Positions 2,791 to 18,810 of a stretch of 25,991 nt of DNA are shown here, in pieces. A program made the translations under genes and the position numbers. The stretch's first letter is position 1. The number at the start of each line of letters is the position of its first letter. The notes under the pieces are model-generated. The model had not been told where the DNA came from. It saw only the letters and a list, made by a program, of their open reading frames with translations, and searched no databases. Source of the DNA: a virus; the IMG/VR virus record IMGVR_UViG_3300027782_000320, positions 1 to 25,991 of that record; one strand, given 5' to 3'.

Positions 2791-3062
2791 TTTTCATCTA
2801 AATAACTGATTAGCAATTGTCTGTATTTTTTGTCCATTTCAAAGTCATTTTGAATTATTTGTAGCTGTTTTGTAATTGACTGAACTTGCATATTCAAAAT
2901 TTGCGAAATTTCAATTTTTTCATAGTCCATAAAATTATATAAAATAAACATTATTTCTCTGCGAATTTTACAAATATGATGTCGAGTGTCATTTTTTATA
3001 ATTGAATTTTCGTCAATTTCATAAATATTTGCAACGTATTTAATTAGTTTTTTGTGTAACAT
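2787..3062 (-). CDS. Degenerate DnaA domain IV-like protein
   Basis: This 91-residue protein is not a textbook family member. Its layout resembles DnaA domain IV: an N-terminal 'IKYVANIYEIDENSII' segment, then arginines and a helix at 34-45 (REIMFILYNFMD), then a helix-turn-helix-like stretch (EISQILNMQVQSITKQLQII, 51-70) and a last helix. The DnaA signature GGRDHTTV is replaced by 'NMQVQSIT', so it either reads another sequence or no longer binds DNA. It overlaps the preceding DnaA-like gene by 19 bases and ends at the edge of the repeat cluster. It may be a partner or antagonist of that protein; this is inference from fold-like pattern and position only. Confidence 0.55.
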   Translation of the reverse strand: MLHKKLIKYVANIYEIDENSIIKNDTRHHICKIRREIMFILYNFMDYEKIEISQILNMQVQSITKQLQIIQNDFEMDKKYRQLLISYLDEN

Positions 3063-3484
3063 TCTAGTATATTTTTTGCATCTTCATAAATCCTCGTTTC
3101 GTATTTATAACCGAGTTCCAAATAATTCTGGTAACATTTAACCCCATGAATAACCGTTGAATGATCTCTGTTCGCAAATCTTCCTATCGCAGCATGAGTA
3201 AAACCATAATCCTTGGCAATAAACATAAAACAAAACCTCACAATTGAAATCGGCCGCTTTCGCTCTGGTCCAGTTATGTCTAAAGGTGTCACCATTGAAG
3301 CTTCGGAAACCGCTTGAAGTATTGCAATCAATTCTTTATTTTCGTCAGGCAACTTTTTTGGATTTATTAATTGTACTTTTAATTTTTGCACTTCGCTTTC
3401 AAGTTCCCGAATCCGAGATTCGCTCATTTTTTGAGTGTTTTGAAGTTTACGGGTTGCGTCCAGATATTTAAGATAATAGTCCAT
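3044..3484 (-). CDS. Phage DnaA domain IV-like replication initiator
   Basis: With the ATG at 3484 this is a 146-residue protein. Residues about 15-42 are a likely coiled coil (RIRELESEVQKLKVQL). Residues about 75-140 match the DNA-binding domain IV of DnaA, with 'FTHAAIGRFANRDHSTVIHG' at 95-114; the RDHSTV segment is the DnaA-box reading signature (GGRDHTTV in bacteria). The AAA+ ATPase part of DnaA is absent, so it cannot act as a full initiator alone. It may bind the phage origin or recruit host DnaA. An upstream in-frame start at 3553 would overlap the previous gene by 86 bases; 3484 overlaps by 17 and is preferred. Confidence 0.8.
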   Translation of the reverse strand: MDYYLKYLDATRKLQNTQKMSESRIRELESEVQKLKVQLINPKKLPDENKELIAILQAVSEASMVTPLDITGPERKRPISIVRFCFMFIAKDYGFTHAAIGRFANRDHSTVIHGVKCYQNYLELGYKYETRIYEDAKNILECYTKN

Positions 3485-3701
3485 AATTCTGCTCAAAAAA
3501 GTCCTCAGGTGATTTGTAAAAACAAATGTTAAAATCTCGCTCACCCGCCTCAAATGCTTTTATTAAATGCTGTTTTTCGTGCTTTTCGTATGCTTTAATT
3601 ATTTTAATGGCTGTTTTGAAAATATCTTTTGAATGGTCCAAGATTAAATTAGACTCAATATCTTCCATGTTTTCAATTAGTGTTTGAATTGGTGTTTTCA
3701 T
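3468..3701 (-). CDS. Small hypothetical protein, 77 aa
   Basis: Not assigned to a function. The protein is helical and charged, with 'AYEKHEKQHLIKAFEAGERDF' near 37-57 and 'SPEDFFEQNYG' near the C-terminus. This pattern of a Tyr/Lys helix, an 'A.EAG' turn and an 'ED.FEQ.YG' end recurs in small early proteins of Bacteroidota phages, as I recall it. A strong Shine-Dalgarno sequence (GGAGGTAA) sits just before its ATG, which supports translation. It overlaps the start of the DnaA-like gene by 17 bases, so the two are probably expressed together. Confidence 0.75.
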   Translation of the reverse strand: MKTPIQTLIENMEDIESNLILDHSKDIFKTAIKIIKAYEKHEKQHLIKAFEAGERDFNICFYKSPEDFFEQNYGLLS

Positions 3702-6346: not shown

Positions 6347-6668
6347 CACCTGTTTCAATTGGTTGAGTTTGAGTTGGTGCAGGAGCGCCGCCCAATAATT
6401 CCACATTTGAAACCCTGACTTTCAAATAAGCTTTGCCATTATGCTCATGGGCATTTGGTTCACCCTCGATTAATACCTTGGTTCCCTTTTTTAAATAGTC
6501 TACAATAATAGTAGATTGGTCTAATTTTCGCCACATAGCGCAGTCAAGCCATTTTGTCTCGTCTTTTGATACCTTGACACCAACTGAAAAATTGATGACC
6601 TTATAATCCTTAATTTCTTTTATTTCGGCATCTCTTCCAAGATTACCTGTAAATATTATTTTTAACAT
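6330..6668 (-). CDS. ssb: Single-stranded DNA-binding protein
   Basis: A 112-residue OB-fold SSB. It begins 'MLKIIFTGNLGRDAEIKEI', contains the family segments 'NFSVGVK' and 'DETKWLDCAMWRK', and 'YLKKGTKVLIEGEP', and ends in the acidic tip 'ETGDDLPF' that binds partner proteins. The ATG at 6668 is chosen over an upstream in-frame start because the family always begins near here. A TATATTTG -7 box lies only four bases before the ATG, so the transcript may be nearly leaderless. It heads the minus-strand replication block and diverges from the recombination operon. Confidence 0.95.
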   Translation of the reverse strand: MLKIIFTGNLGRDAEIKEIKDYKVINFSVGVKVSKDETKWLDCAMWRKLDQSTIIVDYLKKGTKVLIEGEPNAHEHNGKAYLKVRVSNVELLGGAPAPTQTQPIETGDDLPF

Positions 6669-6672
6669 GTTG

Positions 6673-6680
6673 CAAATATA
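6673..6680 (-). promoter_or_regulatory. -7 box TATATTTG of the ssb promoter
   Basis: TATATTTG matches the Bacteroidota TAnnTTTG box. A TTG lies 20 bases further upstream, an acceptable -33 spacing. The box ends 4 bases before the ATG, so the start point would fall at or next to the start codon. The string TATATTTGCAACATG is repeated exactly before the tail chaperone gene at 18305. Confidence 0.65.
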
Positions 6681-11305: not shown

Positions 11306-12615
11306 TATGCTATATCTCCAAATAAATACCACTCATTAGTGTCAATCTTAATCAAAGTTGCACCACTATATTGAGCATTTAATTTAACTTTACTTGCGTT
11401 ACTTCTAATAGTTACACCACTTGTAGGTACTAACGTAGTTTGACCAGCACCATATTGTGCAAGTAAAATCTGTGTACCCGTTGCAAATGCTACCGAACTA
11501 TTTAAAGGTATTGTTAAATTGTTTGCACTGGCGACGTTCATCTCAACAAGTTTATCGGCATCGCTCAAAACAAGTGTATAACTTGCAGTTTGCCTATTTG
11601 CTACGATTAATTTATCAGTCTTCAATGCAAGGTTTGCAATAGTAGCGAATAGTCCGACTGCCCAATCATAAACACTTTTTACACTTGGGTATTTTGTGTT
11701 ACTTGCTTGGTCTGTTGTTACACTTGTGCTTTTGTTTGCTACATTTTCAGGGGTAAAACCAAGAGCATCTTGCTTTGCATTCCACGTCGCAGAACTTGCG
11801 ATTTTTGCATCTGCAATCGCAACACCATTCCAAGTTGCACTAATAATTGAACCAGCATAATCAAGTGTATTTGTTGACCAACTTACGTTTGATGGTGCTA
11901 ATTCGTGTTTCTCCCAACTACCGGCAGCAATTGAATTTGAAAGTAAAGTAACTTCAACATAACCCCCACTTGGTATGCTAACTATTAAAGTATTACTATT
12001 ATTATTTATTGTAATAACACCACTACTTTGGTTATTATTAAAGTAAAAAATATCACCATTATTCAAAGTTGTTGCGTCAGGTAATTTTATCACTTGACCG
12101 CCACTACCAGTTACAACATAACTCCTATTTGAAGCACTTGTAAGGGTTATTAGTGTGCCACTTGCAGCAACAGAAGTAAACCCAAAGAATGTTTGCTTTG
12201 AATTTAATTGGGTTTGAATTGAACTTGTAACTCCATTCAAGTAGTCAAATTCAGTATTTGAAACAAGTCCACTACCTATTTTAGAAGCGTCTATTCCACT
12301 TGGTAAATCACTTGCAGCTAAATCAGCACCTGCAGTTACAAGTCCTTTTGCATCGTATGTGATTTTAGTTTTTGTTGCACCAGTAATGGCTGCGTTTTCA
12401 TCAACCTTCAAATCTAATGCAGTTTGTGTTGCCGAACTTATAGGTTTATTCGCATCACTTGTATTGTCTACATTATTTAAAGCTAATGCAGTTTTTAAAG
12501 CTGTAGGTGTAATCTTTTTAGTTTCAGCCGCTGACGTGTCAACAATGGGAAACAAATCGGCCGCGTTGTCAACGGTTGCAATTGTTGTTAACTGACTAAT
12601 TTTTTGGTCTGCCAT
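11305..12615 (-). CDS. Tail fibre protein
   Basis: A 436-residue, Thr/Ser/Asn/Ala-rich protein. The N-terminus 'MADQKISQLTTIATVDNAADLFPIVD' is the virion-attachment start common to phage fibres. It has tail-fibre repeat segments ('LNNVDNTSDANKPISSATQ'), a 'DYLNGVTSSIQTQLNSKQ' segment, and two beta-rich modules (about 150-235 and 335-436) that contain similar 'GSGGQVIKLPDATTLNNGD' and 'ADKLVEMNVASANNLTIPL' strands. A 'GFTPENVANKSTSVTTDQAS' spacer lies between them. It has its own upstream -7 box. Trimeric fibre structure is inferred. Confidence 0.8.
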   Translation of the reverse strand: MADQKISQLTTIATVDNAADLFPIVDTSAAETKKITPTALKTALALNNVDNTSDANKPISSATQTALDLKVDENAAITGATKTKITYDAKGLVTAGADLAASDLPSGIDASKIGSGLVSNTEFDYLNGVTSSIQTQLNSKQTFFGFTSVAASGTLITLTSASNRSYVVTGSGGQVIKLPDATTLNNGDIFYFNNNQSSGVITINNNSNTLIVSIPSGGYVEVTLLSNSIAAGSWEKHELAPSNVSWSTNTLDYAGSIISATWNGVAIADAKIASSATWNAKQDALGFTPENVANKSTSVTTDQASNTKYPSVKSVYDWAVGLFATIANLALKTDKLIVANRQTASYTLVLSDADKLVEMNVASANNLTIPLNSSVAFATGTQILLAQYGAGQTTLVPTSGVTIRSNASKVKLNAQYSGATLIKIDTNEWYLFGDIA

Positions 12616-12619
12616 ATTT

Positions 12620-12627
12620 CAAAAGTA
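12620..12627 (-). promoter_or_regulatory. Possible -7 box TACTTTTG of the fibre gene
   Basis: TACTTTTG (TAnnTTTG) ends 4 bases before the fibre ATG, in the 43-base gap after the tail hub gene. The short distance to the start codon matches the ssb and tail chaperone promoters. No good TTG -33 element is seen. Confidence 0.4.
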
Positions 12628-12658: not shown

Positions 12659-15016
12659 TTAATAATGAGTCTTAATCCAAAACACTGAGCCATCACTCAC
12701 AATTATAACAGATCCATTTTGATTTGTTATATCGTGATGAGATAGGCCGTCAATCGTGCCATTTATTATTACACTGTGCGGATTTGTTGTTTTCTTAAAC
12801 CAAAATTCAACACCCTTGCAAGTATTAGCCGCAGGTAAATTGATTGTAATATTGCCGTCGCTTGTGTTACATAACATCGAGGGCGTTGAAATACTTGCTG
12901 TGTGTGTACCGGATGTGAGGGTTATAAGGGAGCCGAGTTCGGAGAGTGATATAAAATTCTTTTGAGTTGCAGAATCAAACTTTACAGCTAAACTCCATTT
13001 GGTATTTATTGAAGGAGTTGCTGTAATAGGTACATCCGCAATTTGTAATAAGCGATATGGAAGCGCATTAAATACATTTTGAGTTGAAACCTTTTGCTCA
13101 TTTACTTGTTGTAATATACGAACTAATGTAGATCCTTGCGAGTTTGTATTATAATCACTATCTTCAGTATCAATTGGATTATCTATGTCGTCTGGATAAT
13201 TTGCTATTTTTAACCATTCACCATCCCATTGACAACTGGATGCATTAAAAGTACCCCCATTAAAAACCCAAGTACTATCATCAAATATTAATGATTTAGT
13301 TGGGGTATAATTTCCCGCATCAATCCAGTTACCTTGAGCAACTCTAACGGCTCTTGAATACAATGCCATAAAATCAGAGCTTGACGCGGTTACGAATGGC
13401 TCATATTTGCCTGTGACATTATTCCAATATCCAGGAATGGAGTTTGAATTTAAGTCATAGATTGCACCTGAGTCGAAAATACTTTGATTATTTTGATAGT
13501 ATCTTGTTGAAAATTCAACAATTTTTGAAGCATTATTTAAATTCCCTATATCATTAATTTTATCATTCTTATCAATTTGGCAAACATTTACATCCCCCCA
13601 CATATCAATATTTGTGGAAGTCCCTGAACCGATTGCAGTATTTACAAGTCCTATAATTTGAAAGTCAACCCTGACTCCATCAATACCAGTTGAAGCTGAA
13701 AAGTTTCTAAAAAAATCAGTTGTAATAATTGCATTCGTTGGACCTGCTTGCTCAACTGATAAAATATTGCATTCAATACTTTCATAATCTGGAAGCACAC
13801 TTGCAGTAACCCAAGTTGCAGTATTGTAATCATACCATTTTACGCCAGCGCTTACAGTATAAGAATATATTCTAAAAGCAATATAAACCTTTGAGCTTGC
13901 AGGAATGGTATTGCCAGCCCATGTTACATATCCAAACTTAAGAGTTGCTTTTACAGAAATCTCATTGCCTTGTGGCGCTACAAAATCACCAACAGAAAAT
14001 AATGAACTTGACTTATCTCTAAATGCCCTGACGTTGCTGACTAAAGATGATCGTTTATATTTTGTTCTAAAAGTTCTAACCGATGGCTGATGTGTAATTG
14101 TTGGAAACGCTTCAAATCTTCTGCGGCCAAGTCCTGTATTTTCAAAAATACGATGGCCATAATTAATACTATTTGTTTTTGCTCCTGCAGTTGAGTAAAC
14201 TCTATATTCAAATGTAACAGGATAAGCTCCGTTTCCGTATGCAATAGGTTGAATAATCCAATATTTACCAAGGTGCAAAATTATACGAGCGCCATATTTC
14301 TGCAATATATTCTCAATTGCATCATAACAATTCACATAAATATCCGCAAGATCTGGAGTTTCAGTTTGCTCTGTAAATATTTGAAAATTATCAACTACGC
14401 TCGACAAATTAACCTCCCATTTTTTCAAAAATTGCACTGGTCGCGTTCCGCTCAAAGGGTAAGTTTGGACGCAATCATTTATATAATTATCACCAAATCC
14501 AAGATAAATCCAATATTGATGCAAGTTTGCTTTTGAAATACAAAGCCTAATTAAATCAAGCATATTCAATCGGTTTGCTGTACTGAACCAGGTAGGATCT
14601 ACTTTATAATTAGAAAGTAAACTCATCCCATCAATTGAAGTTACTTTATAAATCACATAACCTTCAAGACTTGAGCGATTCCAACTTATTTGATCTGGAA
14701 TAATTCTGCCTATCCAAACTAAGTCGCTTCCTTTATAAGCAACCATTGCATATTTTTGCTCGTCTGCAACCGATAGCGCTTGAAAAAATGTTTCGTCTGT
14801 TGAGTTATTAATGGCAAGAGTTAAAACTGCTTTTCCTTTACGAATTGGATTTTCCCATATTGCATCCCCATCACCTTGGTATTGGATTTGAAACCCGTCT
14901 GAAACAGCTCTTATTTCTGTTCCGCCTGCTCCGCTTCCACTTGGATCATCCCATATCTCAACTCTCCATTGAGCATTGTTTATATCGTAAAATTGTGAAT
15001 AATATTTTCTAGCCAC
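12659..15016 (-). CDS. Tail hub/baseplate protein (tail-tip)
   Basis: A 785-residue protein encoded right after the tape measure, where siphoviruses place the distal tail and hub proteins. The first part ('MARKYYSQFYDINNAQWRVE', 'QIQYQGDGDAIWENPIRKG') resembles a distal tail/hub fold; the middle has 'YDAIENILQKYGARIILHLGKYWIIQP', a pattern repeated in Bacteroidota phage tail proteins. The C-terminal 130 residues ('TLTSGTHTASISTPSMLCN', 'GTIDGLSHH') look like a fibre-type beta domain. The start is GTG at 15016, overlapping the tape measure stop by 8 bases. Exact role is inferred from gene order. Confidence 0.78.
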   Translation of the reverse strand: MARKYYSQFYDINNAQWRVEIWDDPSGSGAGGTEIRAVSDGFQIQYQGDGDAIWENPIRKGKAVLTLAINNSTDETFFQALSVADEQKYAMVAYKGSDLVWIGRIIPDQISWNRSSLEGYVIYKVTSIDGMSLLSNYKVDPTWFSTANRLNMLDLIRLCISKANLHQYWIYLGFGDNYINDCVQTYPLSGTRPVQFLKKWEVNLSSVVDNFQIFTEQTETPDLADIYVNCYDAIENILQKYGARIILHLGKYWIIQPIAYGNGAYPVTFEYRVYSTAGAKTNSINYGHRIFENTGLGRRRFEAFPTITHQPSVRTFRTKYKRSSLVSNVRAFRDKSSSLFSVGDFVAPQGNEISVKATLKFGYVTWAGNTIPASSKVYIAFRIYSYTVSAGVKWYDYNTATWVTASVLPDYESIECNILSVEQAGPTNAIITTDFFRNFSASTGIDGVRVDFQIIGLVNTAIGSGTSTNIDMWGDVNVCQIDKNDKINDIGNLNNASKIVEFSTRYYQNNQSIFDSGAIYDLNSNSIPGYWNNVTGKYEPFVTASSSDFMALYSRAVRVAQGNWIDAGNYTPTKSLIFDDSTWVFNGGTFNASSCQWDGEWLKIANYPDDIDNPIDTEDSDYNTNSQGSTLVRILQQVNEQKVSTQNVFNALPYRLLQIADVPITATPSINTKWSLAVKFDSATQKNFISLSELGSLITLTSGTHTASISTPSMLCNTSDGNITINLPAANTCKGVEFWFKKTTNPHSVIINGTIDGLSHHDITNQNGSVIIVSDGSVFWIKTHY

Positions 15017-17174
15017 GAGCTGAAGCCCTTTCTTCTCTGTTTAATAAAATTAATAAATCTCTGCCGCTTACTCGAGTTTCAAGTGTGCCGCTATTATTAT
15101 TACTTGAAATATTCAACATGCCCTGTAATTTAGACAATGGTGCAATAACTTCAGGATTTGAAGAGGCTCCTGGATATTCACCCATAAGTCCCAATGTTGG
15201 GCCGCTAACTATACCACCGTCGGCAAATGCTGTTGGACCTTTTTGTGCAACTGATCTCACAACAGCGCCCGCAGCAACTAACGCAATACCGGCACCAATA
15301 GCTAATACTGGATTTGCAATCAATAATTTTGTAAACGCTTCTGACGCTACAGCTGCAGCAATCAAAGCTTTTCCGTATGCATCAGCAAATGACGCTACCG
15401 AATTTAATATAATTGAGAATACACTCTGCAACACATTGCCTCCATTCATTAACCCATCAGCAATAGCTAGTCCTATATTTGCGTACGCATCAGATTGAAT
15501 AGTCACTAATTGCGCATTAATTGCCATTGTAAATTTTAAATTATCCTCATTAAATTTAATCATTGTTTCACGCATTTTATTTTCGTGATTCAATTGCCTT
15601 TGTTCTGTCTGTCTTTGCTGAATTAATTGAAGTCCCTGTTTAGTTTTTAAGAAATCACTTAATCCAAACAATCTAGCTTTATACGCTTTATCTTCAGCTG
15701 CTTTTATTGGATCTATTTGAGTCGGGGTTTCGTTTAATTGAGCAGAAGGTATATCTGAGATAGAAAGATTGTTTGCTTTTGTTGCTAATTTAGCATTTTT
15801 TTCAGCGCTTATTTTAACCAAGTCATCATTAAATTTCTTAAAGTTAACTAAATAAACTTTCCATGCTGCCTCTTCTGATTTTAAGGCTTGTTCTTTTGCT
15901 TTATTTTCATCAGTAATATCCTGCTCAGATTTGACTTTTCCCTCAGCTGTTACCAAATCATTGATTGCCATTTGTTGCTTATTTATGACATCGGTCAATA
16001 TTTTATCAGCATCAGCAATGGCCTTTTTATTTTTTAATTTTTCAGTATCTAATTTTTGTTGAGCTTCACCAATATTGTAACTATTTAAAATTGCTTTGTC
16101 AAGATTAATCTGAGCCAATTGCTCAGCCATCATTCCCGAAGTTAAAGCTTTGGTTTTTGCTTCAGAGTATTTTTTTGCAGCATCAGTTATTTCACTTGAA
16201 AAACTTTCTGCAATGGCTTTCTTTTTCAATACTTCCATGTAGTCCATGGTGCGCTGAGAAAGCAAAGCCAAACTATCTCCATTTTTAATATTTATGTCGG
16301 AAGTAGCAACACCTAATTTATTAATTTCCCTAAGCGCAATAATTCTTTCATGATCTGTACGGTTACTATCTTTGACAATTTTTAAATAAATACCTAAGGT
16401 TCTAGAATTCTTTTCTGCTTCAGCTGTATTTTTATTTAATTCATCTCTATATTTTTTAATTGTTTCAAGAGCAAGTTTTGTTTTTTCAGATTGCTCCATC
16501 ATTTTTGATATGAGTAAACCTATTCCGATAATTGCTAAACCTATTCCTGTAGTTGCCAAAGCAACTTTAAAAGCATTCATAGCGGACGCACTTGCGTAAG
16601 TAGCAAGCGCAAGAGCCTCTTCTTGTAATGCTTGAAATCCAGTTATTGCAGCGCTCTCCTCTTTTAATACATTTTGAATAGCTTGAAGTCCATTCATTAT
16701 TGCAATTGCACCCTGAACTTTTACGAGTGCCTTTTGTAGATCTTCATTCTTGCTTCCAAATAAAGCCGCAGCACCTTCTGCAATTCCAAATGCTCCAGCC
16801 ACTCCTTGCGCAGCAGAAACAACTGCGTCAATTCTACGAGTATCACTAGAAAAATATTTAATTTTATCACCAGCGTCGCCTACTTTGTCTTTAATTTTAC
16901 CCGCTGCTTTGATAATTTTATTTGACATATCTTCAAATTCAGGCCCTAAAGCTTGAACTTTGAGAGCTAAGTTTTGAAGCTGAGCAACGGTTCTTTTTGT
17001 ATTCGGTGAATTTGCGATTCGTTCAAAATCTTTTTCAATCGTCTTGACAACGGCTTCCATCTCAGATGAGATTTTTTTACCACTAGCACCAACTACCGTT
17101 ACGGCATCTTTGAAACCTTTTTCAAGTTTGGCAATGTCTGCGCCTATGACAATATTAATTTGCTTTTCTGCCAT
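15009..17174 (-). CDS. Tail tape measure protein
   Basis: A 721-residue tape measure. Long helical stretches are interrupted by a hydrophobic segment at about 204-223 (TTGIGLAIIGIGLLI) and a second at about 603-640 (KALIAAAVASEAF, PVLAIGAGIALVAAGAVV). The C-terminus has the family's 'FADGGIVSGPTLGLMGE' and 'PEVIAPLSKLQ' segment (about 650-683). At the usual 0.15 nm per residue the tail would be near 108 nm, which is an estimate. It follows the tail chaperone and tail terminator genes, the standard order. Confidence 0.93.
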   Translation of the reverse strand: MAEKQINIVIGADIAKLEKGFKDAVTVVGASGKKISSEMEAVVKTIEKDFERIANSPNTKRTVAQLQNLALKVQALGPEFEDMSNKIIKAAGKIKDKVGDAGDKIKYFSSDTRRIDAVVSAAQGVAGAFGIAEGAAALFGSKNEDLQKALVKVQGAIAIMNGLQAIQNVLKEESAAITGFQALQEEALALATYASASAMNAFKVALATTGIGLAIIGIGLLISKMMEQSEKTKLALETIKKYRDELNKNTAEAEKNSRTLGIYLKIVKDSNRTDHERIIALREINKLGVATSDINIKNGDSLALLSQRTMDYMEVLKKKAIAESFSSEITDAAKKYSEAKTKALTSGMMAEQLAQINLDKAILNSYNIGEAQQKLDTEKLKNKKAIADADKILTDVINKQQMAINDLVTAEGKVKSEQDITDENKAKEQALKSEEAAWKVYLVNFKKFNDDLVKISAEKNAKLATKANNLSISDIPSAQLNETPTQIDPIKAAEDKAYKARLFGLSDFLKTKQGLQLIQQRQTEQRQLNHENKMRETMIKFNEDNLKFTMAINAQLVTIQSDAYANIGLAIADGLMNGGNVLQSVFSIILNSVASFADAYGKALIAAAVASEAFTKLLIANPVLAIGAGIALVAAGAVVRSVAQKGPTAFADGGIVSGPTLGLMGEYPGASSNPEVIAPLSKLQGMLNISSNNNSGTLETRVSGRDLLILLNREERASARG

Positions 17175-17653
17175 TATCCTAAAATTTTATCACCACTTTC
17201 AAGCAGCATAAAGTCGCCACTTTCAAGAAGTATTTTGTATTGTGTTGCAATCGAATCTCTGTTAAACATTAAAATGTAATCTTGCGCAATGTGATAAATT
17301 CCCTCTTCACCTGCGCTGTCATCTGACAATAAAACTTCTTGATCAAATTTAATATCATGGCATATTACACCATTGAAAATACCTGGTGCCGATTGCATTG
17401 CGGTTCTAACTTGCGCCGCTAAACTTGTACAGGTTGCAATTGTCATTCCGAAAATATTAATTTGAACCCTTGCAAAATCTGTTTTTGAATATCCAGTCTG
17501 TGTTTGATTTGCAACCAGTGACACTTGAAAATAAGATATTGCAGGGAATGCCGTTGCTTGTGGTAAACGTAAGGGAGAGATTCTCCCGCTCGTTGCAGTG
17601 TTAACAGCCGTATCGTTTTTGAGGATGTTATATGTAATAAGGAGAGAATTCAC
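17174..17653 (-). CDS. Tail terminator/completion protein (DUF3168-like)
   Basis: A 159-residue protein with the DUF3168 pattern: 'LLITYNILKNDTAVNTAT', 'LPQATAFPAISYFQVSL', 'DFARVQINIFG', and 'AAQVRTAMQS'. Such proteins (lambda gpU-like) cap the tail tube at its head end. The start is GTG at 17653, overlapping the chaperone stop (GTGA). Its C-terminus ends with a near-repeat, 'LLESGDFM' then 'LLESGDKIL', an appendage also common in phage fibre proteins. In most phages this gene comes before the major tail protein; here it follows the chaperones. Confidence 0.72.
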   Translation of the reverse strand: MNSLLITYNILKNDTAVNTATSGRISPLRLPQATAFPAISYFQVSLVANQTQTGYSKTDFARVQINIFGMTIATCTSLAAQVRTAMQSAPGIFNGVICHDIKFDQEVLLSDDSAGEEGIYHIAQDYILMFNRDSIATQYKILLESGDFMLLESGDKILG

Positions 17654-18305
17654 AGCCGCAATTTATCAAATATATGTTTGTTTTTCGTTACAATATCAAT
17701 AACCTCTTCAGAGGATTTTTCCTCCCATGGGAATAGACATAAACTTTGAGGCTTTATTTCTTTGCCTTTTTTAGCATGTGGCGACAGCATCACAGCGGCA
17801 AGCCATCTCGTTTGCTCCCATTTATTGCGATACTCTTGCATCTGAACAGATCTCATCCCTTCCAATCGCAATCGAAAATACAATGGCGTTATGTCATCCC
17901 ATTCATGAGGCATTATCGACATCTCGCCCCATGCAATCAATTTAATATCCTTCCAGTTTAACGGCTTTGATTCCGCTTGTGAGCCTTTTAGTCTTGGCTC
18001 TTCACTTGAAAAAAATCACCCACCGCCTTCGTGAATGCTTCTACTGCCGGGTTTAATTCTTCAAACGATTCAATTTCGTCGCCCAATTCTTCACTGTTTA
18101 CAAATGGCATATTTGTTTTATTCTTTTTACAACCTGCTTTAATTCCGTAAAATGCGCAATCTCTTGAAAATTTAAGACTTTTAACTAAATCTTTGTTCTC
18201 ACCAAATGAAGAAAAATCTTCCATTCCTGCAGCTTGCATGATACTCTCAATGGCCGTCATATTAAAAAATAACGGATATTTAATTTTGTTTATTTCGATT
18301 TCCAT
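17650..18305 (-). CDS. Tail assembly chaperone gpGT-type fusion made by -1 frameshift
   Basis: The first chaperone frame (ATG 18305) reaches T_TTT_TTT at 18015-18009. A -1 slip there enters a frame that is closed by TGA at 18018-18016 just before the site and open from there to the stop at 17650. The fusion would have 99 residues of frame 0 plus 119 of the second frame, 218 in all. The second part contains 'IAWGEMSIMPHEWDD', 'YFRLRLEGMRSVQMQE' and 'RWLAAVMLSPHAKK', typical of the T part of tail chaperones. No ATG with good context opens the second frame alone (nearest starts are TTG 17940 and a later ATG). Lambda gpG/gpGT works in the same way. Confidence 0.85.
17988..18305 (-). CDS. Tail assembly chaperone, short (gpG-like) product
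   Basis: A 105-residue helical, acidic protein beginning 'MEIEINKIKYPLFFNMTAIE', as is common for short tail chaperones. It is encoded between the tail tube gene and the tape measure. It coats the tape measure during tail assembly in studied phages. The last six codons (QVKSQD) are read only when no slip occurs. A new promoter and an upstream terminator precede it, so its level may be set apart from that of the head genes. Confidence 0.88.
   Translation of the reverse strand: MEIEINKIKYPLFFNMTAIESIMQAAGMEDFSSFGENKDLVKSLKFSRDCAFYGIKAGCKKNKTNMPFVNSEELGDEIESFEELNPAVEAFTKAVGDFFQVKSQD
18009..18015 (-). other. -1 ribosomal frameshift site T_TTT_TTT
   Basis: On the minus strand the frame-0 codons read GAT TTT TTT CAA, so the heptamer is in the exact X_XXY_YYZ register. 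The frame-0 stop follows 18 bases later, and the -1 frame continues for 119 codons. Confidence 0.85.
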
Positions 18306-18309
18306 GTTG

Positions 18310-18317
18310 CAAATATA
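18310..18317 (-). promoter_or_regulatory. -7 box TATATTTG before the tail chaperone
   Basis: TATATTTGCAACATG, including the ATG, is identical to the ssb site. It follows directly after the T-run of the terminator. The 16 bases 18310-18325 are also identical to 25939-25954 before terS. No TTG -33 element is seen, which could point to activator-dependent late transcription. Confidence 0.6.
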
Positions 18318-18319
18318 AT

Positions 18320-18343
18320 AAAAAAAGGGAGCATTAAGCCCCC
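18320..18343 (-). terminator. Intrinsic terminator after the tail tube gene
   Basis: On the minus strand GGGGGC, loop TTAAT, GCTCCC forms a 6-bp stem (one G-T pair) that can be extended by A-T pairs, followed by seven T. It lies 33 bases after the tail tube stop and directly before the chaperone promoter, so high-level head and tube expression may end here. Confidence 0.82.
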
Positions 18344-18375
18344 TCTCTAAATTTATGGAATATGAAACAAAAAGA

Positions 18376-18810
18376 TTAAGCTACTACTCCAACCGTCAAA
18401 GTTCCGCTACCTTGCAAAGAACATGTGAAAGTTGACACGTCATTTACGGGAGCAGTCCATGCAAAATTAGTTAATAACGCTGAACCAGACAACTTCATAT
18501 CGCCAGTAACATTTGAAGTCATTACAACTGTAATAAGGGCGCCAGTCATCAAATCAGCTAAGACTTCTTTTGGGCTTTGACCTGATGCGACAGATCCATC
18601 TTCTTCATAAAGTCCCTCAAAATTCATGGTCCATGAAGTTAAGCCAACTAAAAATTCTTTGTAAGCGCCACCGTCTTTATTGGTTGCGTCAATTGTGTCT
18701 TTTGTAATGCTAAAATCAGCACTTGTGCCGTTAGCAAATTTGGTTAATACGCCGCTTACATCTTTGTATAAGCAGACGAGTGTACCATTTACGAGTCCTG
18801 TGGTTGCCAT
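18376..18810 (-). CDS. Major tail tube protein
   Basis: A 144-residue protein of the TP901-1-type tail tube family. The signature is 'DFSITKDTIDATNKDGGAYKEF', 'GLTSWTMNFEGLYEED' and the C-terminal strand 'GSALLTNFAWTAPVNDVSTF'. It polymerises into the tail tube. Its place, between the connector proteins and the tail chaperones, is standard. A strong terminator follows it. Confidence 0.92.
   Translation of the reverse strand: MATTGLVNGTLVCLYKDVSGVLTKFANGTSADFSITKDTIDATNKDGGAYKEFLVGLTSWTMNFEGLYEEDGSVASGQSPKEVLADLMTGALITVVMTSNVTGDMKLSGSALLTNFAWTAPVNDVSTFTCSLQGSGTLTVGVVA

Follow-up and report, generated by a model that had tools for sequence, protein, structure and literature searches.

Two overlapping reading frames on the minus strand of IMG/VR virus record IMGVR_UViG_3300027782_000320 raise the question of whether they are two genes or a single gene read in two ways. 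The window analyzed here is the whole record, 25,991 bases. In its late region, the first open reading frame (ORF1) ends close after a run of seven T's (T7), and the second (ORF2) lies open in the -1 frame from that run onward. Very probably, this is a -1 frameshift on the T run of the kind known for the lambda G/GT tail assembly chaperone (Levin 1993; Xu 2004, as cited in PMC5009743), with an intrinsic terminator and a sigma-A promoter of its own.

Two frames meeting at a run of seven T's

17988..18305, minus strand: ORF1, putative gpG-like tail assembly chaperone, 105 amino acids, the zero-frame product (weak PHROG match, predicted fold)
18009..18015, minus strand: slippery heptamer T_TTT_TTT, found in register at all 35 distinct T7-clade loci
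18016..18018, minus strand: TGA closing the -1 frame and abutting the heptamer
17650..18009, minus strand: ORF2, -1 frame, putative T-like part of a fusion, 119 post-slip codons and a stop (phrog_16333)

The zero frame at the end of ORF1 reads AAG GCG GTG GGT GAT TTT TTT CAA GTG AAG AGC CAA GAC TAA, with the stop at 17990-17988 (-). The -1 frame over the same bases reads TGA TTT TTT TCA AGT GAA GAG and continues for 119 open codons to a stop at 17652-17650. The first-pass annotation of this DNA had described such a heptamer in register at 18015-18009, with the -1 frame closed by a stop directly before it and then open for 119 codons, and both the coordinates and the frames bear it out. In a genome this rich in A and T, such a heptamer is by itself no rarity: it occurs in register three times among the 21 window genes used. 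At the other two sites, the -1 frame stays open for just 16 and 0 codons; conservation across relatives was examined for the ORF1/ORF2 heptamer, one of these three.

The same annotation held that the second frame has no good start of its own, and this also stands. The first possible starts, TTG at 17940 and ATG at 17922, both fall within the conserved domain of ORF2. From about 100 related loci we retained 54 distinct ORF1/ORF2 pairs, 35 of a T7 clade and 19 of a sister clade, and none of the 54 has an ATG, GTG, or TTG between the slip site and the conserved core. The second frame is -1 in every listed pair, and every start codon lies downstream of the conserved residues P16-L17. One could still imagine ORF2 as a separate gene, begun at the TTG or the ATG or reached by reinitiation; -1 overlaps are common between adjacent phage genes, and the records of Bacteroides phage F4 and Cellulophaga phage phi39:1 annotate two genes. 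That account, however, leaves P16-L17 ahead of any start, and the TTG is replaced by TTA in several close relatives. It also fails to fit the synonymous constraint, which peaks at the slip site; when ORF1 of 16 near members is scanned in windows of nine codons, synonymous divergence is lowest at KAVGDFFQV (0.145 observed/expected, against a median of 0.76). We therefore give a separate gene very little credence.

Conservation of the slip site and its surroundings

17981..18000, minus strand: candidate stimulatory hairpin, GAGCC (18000-17996) pairing with GGCTC (17985-17981), a covarying stem
18019..18029, minus strand: Shine-Dalgarno (SD)-like AAGGCGGTGGG, candidate upstream stimulator found in the near clade only (predicted anti-SD pairing)

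Aligning the relatives, as had been proposed, showed the T7 run and the two frames kept throughout the T7 clade: TTTTTTT followed by C stands in register at the end of ORF1 in every distinct locus, always with seven T's and never with eight. The sister clade keeps the invariant Phe-Phe, yet has TTTTTTT in only 1 of 19 loci; the end of its ORF1 carries G_GGA_AAC or G_GGA_AAG (G_GGA_AAM) instead. On a capsid tree with 59 T7 rows and 23 GGGAAAM rows, one change is needed for each. We tried to root this switch with a more distant relative (L138, from a Bacteroidia metagenome-assembled genome [MAG]), but its capsid gene is too divergent and gives no direction of change. A second frame with an independent start, and both parts lying in one frame, were sought among the relatives and not found. 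Taken together, the relatives strongly support -1 ribosomal frameshifting.

The downstream hairpin begins 8 nt after the heptamer, within the 5-9 nt expected for a structure that promotes -1 frameshifting and often studied (PMC5009743), and the ORF1 stop sits in its loop. All 17 representatives have a stem with 5 or more pairs at offset 8 after T7 (7 in one, L110). The chance of such a hairpin is 0.4-5% per sequence, from shuffles of six representatives. The stems themselves differ among relatives (GAGCC/GGCTC, CGGAG/CTCCG, CCCAG/CTGGG, CCCGGC/GCTGGG, and GGAAGC/GCTTCC). The five core pairs nonetheless form in 9/9 distinct stems, with compensatory changes at all five. Across these nine, 21 cells changed on both sides compared with 6.7 in shuffles, covariation was 0.93 versus 0.25, and the signal was lost when the arms were slid. 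The arms were placed by hand, each from its own sequence, which brings in a bias toward pairing that neither shuffling nor sliding removes; the per-sequence chance rate is the better guard. Neither this hairpin nor the SD-like element upstream figured in the first-pass annotation.

A fusion could also arise if RNA polymerase added or dropped a base on the T7 run, so that it was translated from an edited mRNA. Homopolymeric T runs can cause such slippage, and enterobacterial genes show a deficit of TTTTTTT in every frame (PMC4066793). Nonetheless, the run is exactly seven in all 35 loci, never longer, and always in the X_XXY_YYZ register. A covarying hairpin at a fixed distance downstream suits a ribosome rather than RNA polymerase, and the sister clade's G_GGA_AAM is a ribosomal heptamer without a long homopolymer. 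Slippage during transcription is therefore, in our judgment, highly improbable.

With ribosomal frameshifting, we imagine that most ribosomes would end at the ORF1 stop and release a short gpG-like protein, while a minority would pause at the hairpin and shift one base backward at U_UUU_UUU, where two tRNA-Phe would pair anew with UUU. Those ribosomes would continue into ORF2, yielding a gpGT-like fusion (...AVGDFF-SSEEPRLKG...). We infer both the slippage and whatever efficiency it has; the motif class H_HH.U_UU.Y is among the efficient frameshift motifs in Escherichia coli (PMC4066793). If lambda is a guide, the short part might form a coat around the tape measure protein, with the extra domain bringing in the tail tube protein.

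In addition to the hairpin, AAGGCGGTGGG may act as a second, upstream stimulator by pairing with 16S rRNA. For predicted anti-SD pairing it falls in the top 0.02% of the 12-mers of its strand, and the unusual GCG and GTG codons of this region are unchanged in 16/16 near members. Its GGNGG falls within the 6-17 nt stimulatory window of E. coli (PMC4066793), and Bacteroidia prfB frameshift sites retain an SD-like element (PMC8710568). On the other hand, T7 clades farther away lack AAGGCGGTGGG but retain T7 and the hairpin, Bacteroidia ribosomes generally do not recognize SD sequences (PMC9976891), and the element may instead serve RNA structure or the pace of codon reading. We put this role at slightly under an even chance. 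A different upstream hairpin, CATTCAC/GTGGGTG, was dropped because relatives, L027 among them, have altered arms.

A predicted terminator and promoter before ORF1

18322..18348, minus strand: intrinsic-terminator-like hairpin, core GGGGGC/GCTCCC, 11-bp stem as folded
18310..18317, minus strand: TATATTTG, -7 box of the Bacteroidota promoter type, separated by 4 nt from the ATG at 18305

The first-pass annotation had also placed an intrinsic terminator against the TATATTTG box at 18310-18317; both are present, in a cassette conserved among relatives. The hairpin folds at -15.9 kcal/mol (z -3.1), with its core at 18343-18322 and the rest of the T run reaching 18320, and 18348-18320 thus has the G+C-rich stem followed by T's that is typical of intrinsic terminators. 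TATATTTG fits TAHHTTTG, the -7 box of Bacteroidota sigma-A promoters. In Flavobacterium johnsoniae this box spans -12 to -5 (PMC6847099), which makes the A of ATG 18305 the predicted start and the predicted mRNA leaderless.

Among relatives, 26 distinct cassettes, one from L138 and the other 25 from the T7 clade, have a TATATT(T/C)G box ahead of the ATG, with a gap of 4 nt in 23, 5 in 1, and 6 in 2. A hairpin with a T run directly precedes the box in most of them, with unlike stem sequences; in two (L049 and L122) the hairpin lies farther upstream. The box was not found, as searched, in the GGGAAAM clade. The terminator and box might be coincidental and the whole late operon a single transcript. 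The box alone is common, given 51 occurrences of TANNTTTG in the window where 36 are expected by chance, and no -33 element is visible. Recurrence of the same box, mostly at 4-nt spacing, in 26 cassettes whose hairpins differ in sequence argues against coincidence, and we consider a single transcript very unlikely.

With a terminator and promoter in place, the terminator after the tail tube gene would separate off tail tube transcription, and the promoter would restart it 4 nt past its -7 box, probably as a leaderless mRNA. This unit may reset transcription, and slippage might fix the ratio of the two products, as the first-pass annotation supposed. One can go further and envision that the normally sequestered anti-SD aids the -1 shift during elongation, together with AAGGCGGTGGG, U_UUU_UUU, and the hairpin, and that the chaperone comes from a leaderless mRNA of a fused terminator-promoter, its T run doubling as an AT-rich upstream promoter element. 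This combined proposal is speculative, and we doubt it more than we credit it.

The same box-to-ATG arrangement precedes two other genes, at 6666-6680 (-) (TATATTTGCAACATG, identical to 18317-18303) and at 12613-12627 (-) (TACTTTTGAAATATG), and near-leaderless promoters may for this reason be a theme of this phage.

Protein identity, relatives, and known systems

18376..18810, minus strand: tail tube protein (PF06199, E 1.2e-10; phrog_1407)
17174..17653, minus strand: tail terminator/completion protein (PF11367, E 1.4e-10; phrog_347)
15009..17174, minus strand: likely tape measure protein (position and length; phrog matches only of unknown function)

The late genes run in the order capsid, connectors, tail tube, ORF1/ORF2, tail terminator, and tape-measure-like gene. 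ORF1 has a weak match to phrog_2115 ("tail protein") in 10/18 homologs, the best at 9e-4. Its predicted structure (pLDDT, the model's confidence score, 86.7) resembles, by Foldseek, other predicted structures that carry a tail assembly chaperone annotation, with E values of 0.004-0.3. ORF2 matches phrog_16333, of unknown function, in 16/16 homologs. Gene order and the predicted fold of ORF1, together with the missing ORF2 start, the conserved slip site, and the covarying hairpin, support the gpG/gpGT-like pair first suggested from the letters.

Several points weigh against this reading. Pfam gave no match for ORF1 or ORF2, and sequence and fold searches of the PDB with ORF1 returned nothing significant. 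The chaperone assignment, drawn from synteny, weak PHROG matches, and predicted folds, is suggestive; the names of the neighboring genes likewise come from family matches or position. Both products are predictions from sequence. In early E. coli work, U_UUU_UUU shifted much less readily than A_AAA_AAG (PMC5009743), and leaderless mRNAs are a minority, 5.5%, in Flavobacterium psychrophilum (PMC9723704). The host is probably a member of the Bacteroidota, which we infer from the promoter type and the relative in a Bacteroidia MAG.

That relative, L138, was the one close match (62%) in a search with TerL; at 17197-17861 its contig has the same cassette, with a T_TTT_TTC heptamer and ORF1 and ORF2 at 42% and 48% identity. 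Among named phages, Cellulophaga phi39:1 and Bacteroides phages F2, F4, and Bacuni_F1 come closest. A search of species genomes with the major capsid protein found no relatives, and tblastn with ORF1 found no phage record. In L110, the capsid is 35% identical to that of the window and the tail tube 81%, with T7 and the cassette kept; given this disparity, head and tail modules appear to recombine. Elsewhere in the window, the C-terminal stretch of the ORF at 3044-3553 (-), its translation examined by eye, resembles the DnaA domain IV (DnaA C-terminal) family.

Frameshifting in tail chaperones has long been known in other phages; the all-T slip site here appears unusual. Our literature search found no report of U_UUU_UUU in tail chaperones, though an earlier mention is possible. 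These findings offer comparative evidence that an environmental group of Bacteroidota phages uses -1 frameshifting in its tail chaperones, and U_UUU_UUU and G_GGA_AAM at one homologous junction provide a natural experiment on slip-site choice. The SD-like element of the near clade makes an elongation role for the occluded Bacteroidia anti-SD testable, and the terminator with its near-leaderless promoter, as a compact control unit, could be useful in Bacteroidota genetics.

Bacterial insertion sequence (IS) elements that shift -1 at U_UUU_UUC and related sites (PMC4066793) share the heptamer class and the downstream structure, but differ in gene and purpose. Bacteroidia prfB (PMC8710568) likewise has an SD-like sequence ahead of the place where it shifts, SD use being rare in the phylum, but its shift is +1, at a stop codon. 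In Cellulophaga phi39:1 (gp19-gp20) and Bacteroides F4 (00039-00038), the second half is related (32% and 45% identity across part of it) and again follows, in -1, a first frame that it overlaps; there, however, the junction carries an A run, and the two are annotated as hypothetical genes, with no frameshift noted. Lambda G/GT, like the pair described here, has two overlapping frames between tail tube and tape measure, the second in -1 and without an independent start, and a conserved in-register X_XXY_YYZ heptamer in the overlap. The lambda heptamer is G_GGA_AAG, a class that the sister clade shares, whereas this phage has U_UUU_UUU. It further differs from lambda in its conserved downstream hairpin, its own terminator and promoter, and the tail terminator gene that lies between ORF2 and the tape-measure-like gene.
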